Below are positions 399 to 5,443 of a stretch of DNA of 5,443 nt, piece after piece; the first letter of the stretch is position 1, and every line of letters starts with the position of its first letter. This stretch comes from Dethiosulfatibacter sp. (GTDB lineage Bacteria > Bacillota > Clostridia > Tissierellales > Dethiosulfatibacteraceae). The stretch covers positions 1 through 5,443 of the forward strand of contig JAUVAG010000113.1 of the NCBI GenBank assembly GCA_030591825.1, read 5' to 3'. The translations under genes were made by a program, and so were the position numbers. The notes under the pieces were generated by a model. It was given only the letters and a program-made list of their open reading frames with translations, had not been told where the DNA came from and did no database searches.

Positions 399-460
399 TA
401 AATAACCATAGCAATTTGATGGACCATCTTATGAAAAAATAATAAATCTGGGGGATTACA

Positions 461-1447
461 ATGAAACGTAAAAGAGTATTAATTACCTTAATGATAATGT
501 TGATGGCATGCACATCCATAGGATTTGCTGCAAATGGAATTCAGTATGAAGGTGAAGCAGAACAATTGCAGGACCTTGGTTTGTTCAAAGGGACAAACAA
601 TGGCTTTGAACTGGAAAGACAGCCTACAAGGGCCGAAGCAGGAGTAATGCTCATTAGGATGCTTGGTAAGGAAGCATTGGCATTATCTCAAGATAGTGAT
701 CACCCTTTTGATGATGTTCCAGAATGGGCTTCACCATATGTTGGGTACATGTATCAGAACGGACTGACTAATGGTATAAGCGCCAATGAATATGGAACAC
801 AGAATTTTATTGACTCAAAATCATATGCCACCATGCTTATGAGAGTATTGGGATATGAGGATAGTAAGGGAGACTTTTCATGGAATCAGGCACTGGATAA
901 GGCTGTAGAGATTGATCTGATAGATGATTCAGAAATGTTGAGGCTTGCAGGGGAAGATTTCATAAGAGATGACATGGCTCATTTCTCATTCAATCTGCTT
1001 AAGACGGACCTTAAAGGTTCTGAAACCAAGCTTGTGAATAATCTTGTCAACCAGGGTGTTGTTGATAAAGATACAGCTATTAAATGTAATCTTCTTGAAA
1101 AGGAGATTATGGTGACCGGATATTATACTAGTCCGGATGATGTTGCCGACTACCTGCATCTTTATGGAAAGCTGCCTGGAAATTATCTTACAAAGCAGGA
1201 AGCCAAGGACTTTGGATGGATCAGTACAGCGGGTAATCTTTGGGAAGTAACTGATAAATTGAGTATTGGTGGGGATCATTTCGGCAATTATGAAGGGCTG
1301 CTTCCAGATGCTAATGGCAGAAAATGGCATGAATGCGATGTCAACTATAATGGTGGATACAGAGGATCCGAGCGATTGGTTTACTCCAATGACGGATTGA
1401 TTTACTATACCGAAGACCATTATGAATCTTTTGAGAAGATGTATTAG
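461..1447 (+). CDS. Secreted SLH-domain protein with C-terminal barnase-like ribonuclease
   Basis: This 328-residue protein starts at ATG 461 behind GGGGGA (450-455). Residues 1-24 are a signal peptide: MKRKR, a hydrophobic stretch, then an AxA-like exit (GFAA). LMAC at 14-17 is a possible but imperfect lipobox. Residues ~30-206 resemble S-layer-homology repeats: LGLFKGT then QPTRAEAGVMLIRMLG at 54-69, HPFDDVPEWASPYVGYMYQNGLTNGI at 81-106, ATMLMRVLGY at 122-131, and a weaker third unit. SLH domains usually bind secondary cell-wall polymers. Residues ~226-328 align without gaps to barnase (a guanyl-preferring RNase) at offset 218. K245, E291, R301, R305 and H320 match barnase K27, E73 (general base), R83, R87 and H102 (general acid). 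IGGD, GNL, YS and DHY motifs are also kept. R59 is replaced by Y277 and W94 by G312. Predicted role: a cell-surface or extracellular endoribonuclease for RNA scavenging or competition. No barstar gene is adjacent. Confidence 0.9.
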   Translation: MKRKRVLITLMIMLMACTSIGFAANGIQYEGEAEQLQDLGLFKGTNNGFELERQPTRAEAGVMLIRMLGKEALALSQDSDHPFDDVPEWASPYVGYMYQNGLTNGISANEYGTQNFIDSKSYATMLMRVLGYEDSKGDFSWNQALDKAVEIDLIDDSEMLRLAGEDFIRDDMAHFSFNLLKTDLKGSETKLVNNLVNQGVVDKDTAIKCNLLEKEIMVTGYYTSPDDVADYLHLYGKLPGNYLTKQEAKDFGWISTAGNLWEVTDKLSIGGDHFGNYEGLLPDANGRKWHECDVNYNGGYRGSERLVYSNDGLIYYTEDHYESFEKMY

Positions 1448-1529
1448 GAAAGAGGTTGAAATGATTGATTTACCTCACAAAACAGACATTTTGTTAATAT
1501 CACAAACTATAAGCAATATGGAGTATAAA

Positions 1530-1814
1530 ATGAAAATTATTATCAGTCCAAGCAAAACTATGAACTACTGTGATCTGCAGCCTTTAAATAATAATAATCA
1601 AAGTCCCTTAAACAAACTTACCAAAGATTTATTAAACACTTTGAATAATTTGGAGTATGATTCATTAAAGAGTCTGTATAAAACTAGCGATAAAATTATT
1701 GTAGAAGAAATCAAAGGACTTTCAGTTATGAATTACGTTTTTGATGAAAAAATGTCATCAGATAAGGAATATATATTTAGTAGATATACAGATCCTTACA
1801 ATATGGATTATTAA
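1530..1814 (+). pseudogene. yaaA: YaaA-family (UPF0246/DUF328) gene with internal in-frame deletion
   Basis: From ATG 1530, behind GGAG at 1520-1523, the frame encodes 94 residues. The start MKIIISPSKTMNY is the characteristic N-terminus of the YaaA family, known for limiting iron and DNA damage under peroxide stress. Residues 23-55 (LNKLTKDLLNTL to LYKTSDKI) continue like the family's N-terminal third. Residues ~57-85 (VEEIKGL, NYVFDEKMSSDKEYIFSR) resemble the family's extreme C-terminus, where a G/NYxFxExLSSxxEYxFxR pattern is usual. Full-length YaaA is about 245-260 residues, so roughly 150 middle residues are missing, with the join near residue 56. The same frame is open back to ATG 1461, which has its own AGAGG at 1451-1455; this would add 23 unrelated residues (MIDLPHKTDILLISQ...). 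The product is unlikely to fold as YaaA. The gene lies 82 bases after the barnase gene and could share its transcript. Confidence 0.75.
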
Positions 1815-1983
1815 TCGTCGAATTAGTATAGGTTGATAAAAATCAATCAAATTAATTCTTTAAAATAAAGAATAGCTTCTGGAGGCTAATATGAAGAAGA
1901 TGAAAAATCAATGGTTTCTTTGTTAAATGAAGATAGCAAATTGATATTAACCGTGAAACCTATGGGTTCCATTATAAGCTATT

Positions 1984-2012
1984 AAATACCAACCATTGTG
2001 GTTGGTATTTTT
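1984..2012 (+). terminator. Rho-independent terminator-like hairpin
   Basis: A perfect 12-bp inverted repeat, AAATACCAACCA at 1984-1995 and TGGTTGGTATTT at 1999-2010, surrounds a 3-base loop (the outermost pairs may open). The 3' arm runs into a T tract (TATTTTT, 2006-2012). It is well placed to end transcription of the barnase/yaaA-remnant unit before the acetyltransferase promoter. It lies within the possible decayed membrane-protein frame, so it either arose there or the frame is spurious. Confidence 0.65.
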
Positions 2013-2025
2013 GGTTGTTTTGCAG

Positions 2026-2054
2026 TTGTAATATGTGTTATCCTAGATTATAAA
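2026..2054 (+). promoter_or_regulatory. Candidate sigma-A promoter for the acetyltransferase gene
   Basis: TTGTAA at 2026-2031 (4 of 6 to the -35 consensus) is followed after exactly 17 bases by TATAAA at 2049-2054 (5 of 6 to the -10 consensus). Transcription would begin near 2061, giving a 5' leader of about 33 bases with a GGAG at 2081-2084. It sits just downstream of the hairpin terminator, as expected for a new transcription unit. In AT-rich DNA such matches also occur by chance. Confidence 0.45.
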
Positions 2055-2093
2055 TGAAAATAATTAAGAGGTAATAGTAAGGAGTGATAGAAA

Positions 2094-2576
2094 TTGAAAA
2101 GAATTGATATAAGACCAACAACTCTATCAGATTGTGAATTCATAATTAAAGCCAATGAAGGAATGGACGAGGATTTTCTGCATCAATGGTCCGGACCGTC
2201 TTATGAATTCCCCATAACAATGGAACAAATTAAAAAAAGGCTGGTTGACAGTATATATACCAAGTTTTTTACTGCTGAAATCCAGGGTGAAACCATAGGA
2301 ACTGTAGAGCTTGGATTTATAAACTACAAGAAAATGGAATGCAGGATATGCAGGTTTTTAGTTGGGGAAGAATACAGAAACAAAGGTTATGGAAGCCAAA
2401 TATCAAAATATCTTATTGACCATGCTTTTAATGAGCTGAAAATGGAAAGGGTGATGCTCAATGTTTCATCTTCTAATATGTCAGCCATAAGATGTTATGA
2501 AAAAGTTGGGTTCAAGGTTGTGGAAAAGAAAGAAAAAAATAATGGGAACCTTTTATATGAGTTATTGAGATTATGA
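2094..2576 (+). CDS. GNAT-family N-acetyltransferase
   Basis: This 160-residue protein starts at TTG 2094, set by GGAG at 2081-2084. It has the single-domain GNAT layout for acetyl transfer from acetyl-CoA to an amine. The N-terminal IDIRPTTLSDCEFI (4-17) is the usual first strand and helix. Motif A includes FLVGEEYRNKGYGSQIS (88-104), in which RNKGYG (95-100) is the R/QxxGxG/A pyrophosphate-binding loop. Motif B includes NMSAIRCYEKVGFKVV (128-143), the typical NxxAIxxYEKxGF. Length fits the family. The substrate cannot be read from the sequence; the overall look is close to the RimJ/RimL and Acetyltransf_1/3 groups. The gene appears intact and is probably transcribed from its own promoter between 2026 and 2054. 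No clear terminator follows before the next gene. Confidence 0.9.
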   Translation: MKRIDIRPTTLSDCEFIIKANEGMDEDFLHQWSGPSYEFPITMEQIKKRLVDSIYTKFFTAEIQGETIGTVELGFINYKKMECRICRFLVGEEYRNKGYGSQISKYLIDHAFNELKMERVMLNVSSSNMSAIRCYEKVGFKVVEKKEKNNGNLLYELLRL

Positions 2577-2674
2577 GTTATTATGTTTTGAATTAGTATA
2601 AAATAGTGATTAGTACTAACATGAATAATGTGATAGACAATGAAAATTATAGAAATTGATAAAGAGGAGTATTA

Positions 2675-3028
2675 ATGAAATTTATATCAAATAGAAAAGA
2701 AATGGATTTGGATTCCAGTATTTCTGAATCAGATGTTATTGAAGAGTATGTCGATGTTCCGGTGAAGAATATCATTAATGCTTCAAGAGCCGAGGGTGCA
2801 ATAGAGGCATTGAATATCATCCAAGGTAATTTGATGAGCTACTTGGATGATAATGGTATTGTACCAGAAGAGGCGGATCCAGAAATTAGGAAGATTGTAG
2901 GGCTTGTATTTAAAAGTTCTATAAACATTAAAAATGAGTGTCAAAGTATGCTGAAAGAGACTTATGACTTTAATTATGAACTTGATGGTATCAAAGTGAA
3001 GGTGCCTAAAGAGAAAGTGATAAGATAG
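2675..3028 (+). CDS. Hypothetical cytosolic protein, 117 residues
   Basis: ATG 2675 lies 5 bases after a strong GAGGAG (2664-2669), so translation from here is convincing. I do not recognise the family. The protein has no signal peptide or membrane segment. The N-terminal third is acidic (MDLDSSISESDVIEEYVDVP, 10-29). Residues ~31-60 (NIINASRAEGAIEALNIIQGNLMSYLDD) and ~67-96 should form helices, with a PEEADPE turn at 64-70. The C-terminus is basic with a short strand (DGIKVKVPKEKVIR, 104-117). The next gene starts 59 bases downstream on the same strand with no terminator between, so the two are probably co-transcribed; the partner is nucleotide-related, but that alone does not assign a function. 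Confidence 0.7.
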   Translation: MKFISNRKEMDLDSSISESDVIEEYVDVPVKNIINASRAEGAIEALNIIQGNLMSYLDDNGIVPEEADPEIRKIVGLVFKSSINIKNECQSMLKETYDFNYELDGIKVKVPKEKVIR

Positions 3029-3043
3029 ATAGCAAACATTGAT

Positions 3044-3080
3044 TGAGTTAAGAAAAGGAAGTTGTGAGTTAAGAATAGGA
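3044..3080 (+). repeat. Tandem 16-bp direct repeat, 21-base period, carrying the ribosome binding site
   Basis: TGAGTTAAGAAAAGGA at 3044-3059 is repeated as TGAGTTAAGAATAGGA at 3065-3080, with one mismatch (A at 3055, T at 3076). The second copy supplies the AGGAG (3077-3081) used by the gene at 3088; the first copy supplies a similar AGGAAG with no good start behind it. It looks like a local duplication of the translation-initiation region. Confidence 0.65.
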
Positions 3081-3087
3081 GACAAAA

Positions 3088-3405
3088 ATGACAGGAAAAT
3101 ATAAAGTAATAACGTTATGTGGTAGCACCAAGTTCAAGGATGAATTTATTGAAGTACAAAAAAGATTGACGATGGAAGGAATTATTGTTATTAGTGTTGG
3201 TCTTTTTGGCCATGCAGACGGTGATTATCAGACTGTATTGACAGAGGAAGTAAAAGTGATGCTTGATGACATGCATAAAAAGAAAATTGACATGGCAGAT
3301 GAAATATTTGTAATCAATAAAGGCGGATATATTGGGTCAAGCACTAATAGTGAAATCGAGTATGCAATGGGAACAGGAAAAAAAATTAATTATTTTGAAG
3401 AATAA
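3088..3405 (+). CDS. Nucleoside 2-deoxyribosyltransferase-like (DUF4406-type) protein
   Basis: The 105-residue product starts at ATG 3088, 6 bases after AGGAG (3077-3081). It resembles small proteins of the nucleoside 2-deoxyribosyltransferase/DUF4406 fold, which bind nucleotides or transfer deoxyribosyl groups between bases. Supporting motifs are ITLCGSTKFKDEF (8-20), a phosphate/ribose-binding loop after strand 1; VISVGLFGH (34-42); KIDMADEIFVIN (66-77), where Asp sits at the ribose site in relatives; and GGYIGSSTNSEIEYA (79-93). In that last segment E89 is in the place of the nucleophilic Glu of true deoxyribosyltransferases. The C-terminal KKINYFEE is the usual last strand. Length is typical of the short members. 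Whether it is an active transferase or hydrolase is unknown. It follows the 117-residue hypothetical gene by 59 bases, probably in one transcript. Confidence 0.85.
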   Translation: MTGKYKVITLCGSTKFKDEFIEVQKRLTMEGIIVISVGLFGHADGDYQTVLTEEVKVMLDDMHKKKIDMADEIFVINKGGYIGSSTNSEIEYAMGTGKKINYFEE

Positions 3406-3498
3406 TATTCTTTTGTCTATTAGAATTAAACACAGTATTAATCAAAAAATGGAAAGAAAAATATTTTAGGAATTAATTTTGAGATAAGGGACATTTCG

Positions 3499-3527
3499 TT
3501 GAAGTGCAAATAAACATATGCTATACT
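3499..3527 (+). promoter_or_regulatory. Sigma-A-type promoter upstream of the GGDEF gene
   Basis: TTGAAG at 3499-3504 is followed by a 17-base spacer and TATACT at 3522-3527. The -35 matches consensus at 4 of 6 and the -10 at 5 of 6, and the spacer is optimal. Transcription should begin near 3534. It lies 94 bases past the end of the deoxyribosyltransferase-like gene and points at the GGDEF gene, so that gene is probably its own unit. A hairpin with a T tract lies only about 30 bases past the expected start point. Confidence 0.65.
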
Positions 3528-3564
3528 ATTGTTTGGGTAGGGACTGAATTTTAGATAGTAAATT

Positions 3565-3590
3565 AGGTGTCTGCCAAGCAGACGCCTTTT
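3565..3590 (+). terminator. Intrinsic terminator-like hairpin in the leader of the GGDEF gene
   Basis: GGTGTCTGC at 3566-3574 pairs with GCAGACGCC at 3578-3586 (nine pairs, one of them G-U, plus an outer A-T pair) around the loop CAA. It is followed by TTTTATATTTT at 3587-3597. The GC-rich stem and T tract fit a rho-independent terminator. It could end transcripts from the preceding operon. It also lies between the promoter at 3499-3527 and the gene at 3630, so it could act as an attenuator or end a small RNA of about 55 bases. Confidence 0.65.
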
Positions 3591-3629
3591 ATATTTTGGA
3601 GAGGATAAAAACGAATCAAGGGAGCAGGA

Positions 3630-5443
3630 ATGGGAAAGAATAATAGGAGTATCGACAGGAAAAGATTTGTTTATATTCCTTTTCTTATAGTCTTTTTTGC
3701 GGTACTTATAATAAATATCACCACATTTTTCATCAGTAGAAACATTTATATGGAACAATCGGGAAATTATGCTGAAAATCTTGCAATTATGCTGTCAGAT
3801 AATATAAAGGACAACCAGGAGAATCTGGACAGGATTATTGAATTATTGGATGAAAAGATGATAAGTGTAGGTAATGATGTTGTCATGAACATTGAGTATG
3901 TTGACAGCAAATACCTAAAGGAGCTGTGTGGAAACTTCAGCCTTCAAGAAATAAATTTGTATGATAATGAAGGAGAGATTATAATTTCCTCTGTTGATAG
4001 TTTAATTGGACGTAAATATGAAAAGGGCAGTCCCATTGACAGGTTTGTAAGGTCTTCTGAAAGAGTCAAGGTTGAGGACATCAGAAAGTCATTGGACAGT
4101 GATGACTATATAAAGTCGGTTTTTGTTCGAAGTGATGATGGCAGATTTGTACAGGTTGTAATTAACGCGGAAGATATATACAAGCTGATTGAAAAATATA
4201 CATATCAGTCTACACTTGATGAGTTCACAAAGGACGAAACCGTGTTATATAGCTATTTAATGAATATGATGCTGGAAAAAGTTGCCGGGTCACTGGATGT
4301 GGTTGACCATGAATATGATAGGACCCATTATGCCAGTGTAATCAACGGGAATACGAAAGTACACATTACATCTGAAAACCCAATAGATACGAAAGCGCTG
4401 GAGGTTGCAGTGCCCTTGAAATATGGTGATATGACAGTTGGAGTCATAGTAATTGGAGTGAGTACCGATTATGCCAGAACCAGCATGTTTCTGGTTTGTT
4501 TAAATGTATTGATAATAGGTGCAGGATTTCTTTTGATTTTTTACAGATTTATAAAGAAAAATCTAGTAACATCACTTAATGAGCTTGATAGTAATCTGGA
4601 TATGTTAAATATTGAGAAACATTCATATGTTATGATGCCTGAAGATGACAAGAGCATTTTTACAGGAATATACCAAACGATCAATGGCATTCTTTCCAAA
4701 GTATATGAATACAATGATAAAGTTCTTATGCTTGACAAAAAGTTTTTTTCGGCCTTGAGGGAGTCAGGAACTGTTTACTGGGAATATGATTCCATAGAGA
4801 AGAATCTTGGATTTCCATACGGCGACATTCTCAGAAGGACTGATATCAATGGTGAAGACAGTGAGATTGCCTTGTCTGAAATAGTAAACGATGAAATGAT
4901 TGCAATTATTTCAGAAAGGGTTTCAATGAAAATCGTTGATTCAGGCGATAATGTTCAATATATAGACAAACTTTGTCCGGAGAATGGAAAAGAAGTATGG
5001 GTTTATCTGGCGCTTATTAAGAACATGGATAAGGTGAAAACAAATTACAGTGGAATATGCATTGATATTTCAAAGTTCAAGGAGCAGGAAAAACACATAT
5101 ATGATCTTGTATTCAGAGATGAAATAACTTCTCTATACAATGGAAGATATTTCAATGAGAAATTAAGGGAAAGACTTTTGGAAAACACTGCAGGAACGGT
5201 ATTGTTGTTTGACATAGATTCATTCAATGAACTTAACAATATAAAAGGAATGGTTTTTGGGAACAAGGTTTTAAAGACCATTGCCAAAATTATTAAATTA
5301 TACAGGCCGGAAGGTTCTTTTGTATCCAGATTGGGTGAAGATGAGTTTGCTGTTCTTATGAAAAATGACAATAATGGAAGACAGGAGTTACTGGACAGTC
5401 TTACAAGAGTATTCGGCAAGGATATTCTTGTTGGTGATGAATA
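3630..5443 (+). CDS. Membrane sensor protein with PAS-like and degenerate GGDEF domains (3' end outside window)
   Basis: 604 codons are visible from ATG 3630, and the frame is open to the window edge. GGGAG (3620-3624) and an in-frame TAA at 3606 fix the start. TM1 (about 13-35) and TM2 (about 286-307) flank an extracytoplasmic region of ~250 residues that looks like a Cache/PAS-type ligand sensor (EINLYDNEGEIIISS near 107-121). Next are a linker, a PAS-like domain (about 372-490, closing with GICIDISKFKEQEKHIYDL) and a GGDEF domain from about 490. Diguanylate cyclases join two GTP into c-di-GMP. Here the signature is GEDEF (569-573), with Glu for the second Gly. Relative to PleD, metal-binding D327 is kept (D528) and N335 is kept (N536), but K332 is N533, H340 is M541 and D344 is N545. 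The cyclase is therefore probably weak or inactive. An EAL phosphodiesterase domain may follow beyond the window, but this is only inferred. Confidence 0.85.
   Translation, partial: MGKNNRSIDRKRFVYIPFLIVFFAVLIINITTFFISRNIYMEQSGNYAENLAIMLSDNIKDNQENLDRIIELLDEKMISVGNDVVMNIEYVDSKYLKELCGNFSLQEINLYDNEGEIIISSVDSLIGRKYEKGSPIDRFVRSSERVKVEDIRKSLDSDDYIKSVFVRSDDGRFVQVVINAEDIYKLIEKYTYQSTLDEFTKDETVLYSYLMNMMLEKVAGSLDVVDHEYDRTHYASVINGNTKVHITSENPIDTKALEVAVPLKYGDMTVGVIVIGVSTDYARTSMFLVCLNVLIIGAGFLLIFYRFIKKNLVTSLNELDSNLDMLNIEKHSYVMMPEDDKSIFTGIYQTINGILSKVYEYNDKVLMLDKKFFSALRESGTVYWEYDSIEKNLGFPYGDILRRTDINGEDSEIALSEIVNDEMIAIISERVSMKIVDSGDNVQYIDKLCPENGKEVWVYLALIKNMDKVKTNYSGICIDISKFKEQEKHIYDLVFRDEITSLYNGRYFNEKLRERLLENTAGTVLLFDIDSFNELNNIKGMVFGNKVLKTIAKIIKLYRPEGSFVSRLGEDEFAVLMKNDNNGRQELLDSLTRVFGKDILVGDE

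Follow-up and report, generated by a model that had tools for sequence, protein, structure and literature searches.

Barnase and barstar form a textbook pair, in which the inhibitor is held to guard the producer from its own enzyme. Classical barnase, as the passages on it in PMC8625414 describe, is a freely secreted protein of ~110 residues that cuts RNA with little selectivity, and barstar protects the producing cell. We have analysed a stretch of 5,443 nucleotides from Dethiosulfatibacter sp. (the window, meaning this whole stretch), in which one coding frame at 461..1447 (+) joins an S-layer-homology (SLH) module to a barnase-type ribonuclease (RNase). The encoded protein is probably a wall-displayed RNase with a complete set of catalytic residues, which would be held by its N-terminal three-repeat SLH module and would cut extracellular RNA.

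Several described systems come close to this protein. Barnase of Bacillus amyloliquefaciens and binase (PF00545) share its fold and its five catalytic residues, whereas the window enzyme lies behind a 216-residue SLH-bearing N-terminus and has no adjacent barstar. The closest barnase domains are found in free clostridial barnases (L023–L025, from genomes G046, G034 and G020; L023 is 73% identical), which differ in being 168–172 amino acids (aa) long, in matching a lipobox pattern in two of three cases, and in having their own barstar overlapping or adjoining. The SLH module has the fold of the SLH trimers of SpaA (Paenibacillus alvei) and Sap, which are S-layer proteins and not RNases, with about 18–20% identity; like the window protein, SpaA has two complete ligand grooves and has lost the third. 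The same degenerate module is present in the clostridial surface proteins P0122–P0147 (42–53% identity over most of the module), but there it is accompanied by CAP, transglutaminase-like, rotamase, metallo-beta-lactamase or no recognised domain instead of barnase. Finally, the barnases of polymorphic toxins also have a C-terminal barnase-type domain, but in the account that PMC3482391 gives of them they come with delivery domains and Imm-barstar, neither of which was found here.

The fusion gene and its two domains

The sequence-only reading had proposed a barnase-type RNase with all five catalytic equivalents, aligned without gaps over about 100 residues, behind an export signal and about 180 residues of SLH-like repeats. 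Each of these parts has been borne out. The barnase domain (residues 219–328, 1115..1444, +) matches PF00545 at residues 228–327, within the region 226–328 where it had been placed, with an E-value of 3.6e-20 and 72.8 bits (cut-off 24). Barnase 1bse aligns ungapped over 103 residues (residues 225–327 on chain positions 7–109, E 1.2e-34), and with the numbering offset of 218, K245, E291, R301, R305 and H320 are the equivalents of K27, E73, R83, R87 and H102. These five are invariant in 7/7 fusions and in 110/110 rows of free barnases. Of two structure models, the first is good for the SLH part and poor for the barnase part, since its alignment (A2) holds few barnases, while the second (alignment A3) is good for barnase and poor for SLH. 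The predicted barnase part overlays the barnase fold with a root-mean-square deviation of 1.2, as had been anticipated.

For the SLH module, PF00395 passes one repeat of three (residues 82–117, E 3.6e-6, 27.3 bits, cut-off 20.8), and the model of residues 28–192 superposes on SLH trimers, which have the three-repeat fold; the extent given earlier is thus right. Repeat 1 (residues 26–70, 536..670, +), assigned from the trimer fold, carries the GLFKG glycine G44 and the TRAE arginine R57. Repeat 2 (residues 82–130, 704..850, +), the one seen by PF00395, keeps W89 and G105 and has S119 at the position of the TRAE arginine. Repeat 3 (residues 138–185, 872..1015, +), again assigned from the trimer fold, keeps W141 and R169 and has lost the second glycine of GIIxG. 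A short linker (residues 201–218, 1061..1114, +) lies between the two modelled domains. According to the published groove rule (Gly29, Trp13, Arg43), with residues placed by motif and spacing, two of the three ligand grooves are complete, namely groove 1 (G44, W89, R169) and groove 2 (G105, W141, R57). Among 37 aligned rows, G44, W89, G105 and R169 are each present in all and R57 in 36, while the W141 position is occupied by W in 24 rows and by Y in 10 others.

The fusion is real. The frame has an ATG start and stays open without stops over 328 aa, and six database proteins (P0002–P0007) are full-length relatives of the same layout, with 75–79% identity to the window protein. It is hardly conceivable that the frame is a misassembly or a decayed gene. 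Decayed genes do exist in the region, since the next frame downstream is a shortened yaaA look-alike; yet misassembly is refuted by the six relatives, whose shared layout makes an assembly chimera unlikely, and the catalytic and groove residues have been retained in an open frame. Six bases 5' of the ATG, a GGGGG run read in the sequence (450..454, +) is a candidate ribosome-binding site. A promoter scan did no better than on shuffled sequences, and an Rfam search gave no match over threshold.

The architecture is rare, and is built from two well-known modules. We have searched 5.8 billion proteins twice, each time taking the best 120 of thousands of matches, and both searches gave the same six full-length fusions among the matches listed. 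Of 143 further proteins in these lists, 142 have two tandem barnase domains and no SLH module, and the last (P0048) has an SLH module without barnase. Since two domains score twice, the match lists favour tandem proteins, so that rarer layouts of lower rank would go unseen. The tandem double-barnase proteins (P0008–P0047, P0049–P0121, P0151–P0179) lie behind an export signal and are common in Clostridia, e.g., in Candidatus Limiplasma; no paper linking Limiplasma with ribonuclease was found. Among the frames from loci L001–L157, 40 have an SLH module. Barnase accompanies it in the window's frame alone, which is counted under both L001 and L022. In our survey of 249 genomes of the host's order, 64 bear a barnase (PF00545), and in these only two barnase frames exceed 230 codons, namely the fusion's own (333) and one in G082 (447, no module). 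No report of an SLH-fused barnase was found in the literature searched, which mostly excludes subscription journals, and the architecture may have been published.

Predicted anchoring at the cell surface

The export signal (residues 1–23, 461..529, +) is likely of the signal-peptidase-I type, as judged by eye on alignment A1, where [GV][FY]A is conserved ahead of residue 24. Since this signal is followed by an SLH module with two complete grooves, wall display is predicted. The protein would be exported by Sec, and its SLH trimer would then use grooves 1 and 2 to dock non-covalently on a pyruvylated secondary wall polymer, as fold and residue rule predict.

We have also compared the anchoring of 93 barnase frames, i.e., the window's own, 12 relatives and 80 named ones (L026 and L083 are from the same genome). 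By a home-made regular expression, which is not a validated predictor and missed the likely cases L025 and L030, 65 of the 93 match a lipobox pattern. It seems from these sequences that barnases of these Clostridia are commonly tethered to the surface and that the fusion exchanges the anchor. Therefore, the display of the nuclease on the wall, which the sequence-only reading had put forward, stands as a prediction, but display as such is not the novelty.

These frequent lipoboxes also raise the idea that the window protein is lipid-anchored like its relatives, with Cys17 lipidated and the SLH part merely a spacer between nuclease and membrane. Residues 14–17 (LMAC) are indeed lipobox-like. Against this, Cys17 is unique to the window protein, none of the six other fusions having a Cys at that position; the window protein itself fails the lipobox pattern; and two SLH grooves have kept their full sets of Gly, Trp and Arg, six residues in all. 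We thus regard lipid anchoring as improbable, and wall binding by the SLH module as the preferred explanation.

The usual barstar partner and the origin of the fusion

What the first reading overlooked is the absence of the usual adjacent barstar gene. PF01337 (barstar) is found in 69 of the 249 genomes. In 58 of the 63 other barnase genomes, barstar lies 4–134 bases downstream on the same strand. In four more (G126, G132, G133, G134), a profile built from the barstars of eight relatives picks up a divergent copy directly downstream, so that Pfam under-counts divergent barstars; the total with an adjacent barstar is 62/63. In G149 the distance is 1,565 bases. At the 80 named loci, barstar is within 332 bases in 71 and absent from the locus in nine, where a relaxed barstar search also gave nothing over the inclusion threshold. 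The lack of an adjacent barstar is therefore not unique to the fusion. The nine are L086, L111, L114, L116, L120, L122, L125, L128 and L093, of which all except L093 are lipoprotein-like with long acidic linkers; L114, L116, L120, L122 and L128 have a common membrane-protein neighbour. That eight of the nine are lipoprotein-like gave rise to the idea that tethered barnases go without barstar and free ones keep it, which is ruled out because 57 of the 65 lipobox-matching frames have barstar.

In the window, a search of all six frames with the relatives' barstar profile gave no barstar (best score 4.1 bits, E 0.51), and in the downstream stretch (1448..5443), where relatives carry barstar, a shortened yaaA-like frame is found instead. 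The neighbourhood of the fusion was read in the window alone; of the six relatives, P0004 and P0005 come from metagenome contigs of 31.6 and 33.4 kb. The host assembly, which is 68.3% complete and was scanned as a whole with Pfam only, has no PF01337 match. G001, a genome of the same genus, has a barstar and no barnase. The hydrogenase gene that flanks this barstar in G001 is also present on host contig C310 (79% DNA identity across 921 bases), but there it has other neighbours and no barstar. Barstar is thus missing from both expected places in the host, while an unlinked copy may lie outside the 68.3% complete assembly. Across the order, 10 of the 69 barstar genomes have no PF00545 match; such barstar genes include L153:1495-1764 (G001) and L157:1498-1752 (G087).

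A decayed active site or barstar face is ruled out as the cause of the loss, since the key residues are kept. The equivalents of K27, N58, E60, E73, R83, R87, H102 and Y103, among them positions that we take to form the barstar interface, are unchanged in 7/7 fusions. The R59 equivalent is Tyr in 6/7, as it likewise is in 45/110 free barnases, many of them with barstar.

How the host survives its barnase may be explained in two ways, by an unlinked barstar or by safe export through domain order. The former supposes an ordinary barnase-barstar pair whose barstar has merely moved, with a copy in the roughly one third of the genome that the assembly lacks. It is a real possibility, if somewhat short of an even one: the incompleteness of the assembly, the barstar without barnase in G001 and the 1.6-kb distance in G149 speak for it, whereas the missing PF01337 match in the host assembly and the other genes flanking the hydrogenase gene on C310 speak against it. 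A more speculative idea, which we put forward only tentatively, is that domain order replaces barstar. With 216 export-committed residues ahead, the nuclease would reach the ribosome exit only once the chain is in the secretion channel, and would never fold in the cytoplasm. If this is true, domain order and wall capture would take over the protection from barnase, and the inhibitor would become dispensable.

As for the origin, we have built a tree of 117 barnase domains, which is based on few columns and leaves many forks unresolved. In it, the seven fusions group with four free barnases (L052, and L023, L024 and L025, which belong to a single family of the order) at a Shimodaira–Hasegawa-like approximate likelihood ratio test (SH-aLRT) value of 99. 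All four have barstar downstream, which points to a barstar-accompanied ancestor of the fusion. The simplest origin would then be that an SLH module was joined to such a barnase and that the inhibitor gene was lost from the neighbourhood. Judged from this tree, an SLH anchor most likely took the place of a lipid or secretion anchor in the fusion, and the neighbouring inhibitor gene disappeared.

Other features of the window lie downstream. The ends of the yaaA-like frame (1530-1814) match profile positions 1–53 and, weakly (E 0.057), 226–253; the middle is missing, which looks like an internal deletion. A terminator-like stem with a T-rich tail (1984-2010) stands ahead of an acetyltransferase gene. 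Two small frames at 2675-3028 and 3088-3405 (117 and 105 aa) belong to no Pfam or NCBIfam family, and a membrane sensor with a GGDEF domain (3630-5443, E 4.4e-17, motif GEDEF) is truncated by the window end.

Possible role and meaning

At the wall, RNA would be cut after guanines by E291 and H320 together with K245, R301 and R305, as the identity with barnase suggests. By analogy, a general RNA-digesting enzyme may be kept on the cell's own surface so that its products stay in reach, and RNA scavenging is the role that we infer as preferred. Of the three roles proposed earlier, contact-dependent competition fits worst. It would make the protein an antibacterial toxin, a wall-displayed barnase delivered into neighbouring cells. 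Barnase domains do act as toxin domains in the polymorphic toxin systems treated in PMC3482391, and the C-terminal position is the same as there. On the other hand, no barstar-type immunity gene adjoins, while the relevant passages of PMC3482391 link barnase toxins with Imm-barstar; no delivery domain over cut-off is seen in Pfam and NCBIfam scans of the protein; the barnase domain is the same in all seven fusions, none of which has exchanged its C-terminal domain; and SLH has no occurrence in the text of PMC3482391 as available. No other immunity family was found beside the barnase within what general Pfam and NCBIfam scans cover. A toxin is therefore unlikely, and extracellular RNA digestion is preferred because the delivery domains and Imm-barstar of barnase toxins are not seen here.

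Several points weigh against a wall-held scavenging RNase. The scavenging role comes from family knowledge alone, and wall binding and RNase activity are predictions from sequence and model. The lipobox-like motif at Cys17 leaves room for lipid anchoring of the window protein. No match to PF04230 (pyruvyltransferase, CsaB type) was found in the host assembly, which is 68.3% complete, or in G004, while 6/8 genomes of the host's family have one. Each model is good for one domain only, so that neither gives a reliable orientation of the SLH domain relative to barnase, and the fusion branch itself, at an SH-aLRT of 77, is not strong.

Overall, most clostridial barnases are probably surface lipoproteins and not free secreted enzymes. 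With the fusion, the range of enzymes that bacteria mount on their wall through SLH modules would come to include an RNase. As a natural barnase with all its catalytic residues, a different anchor and no adjacent inhibitor gene, it makes the need for the inhibitor testable.
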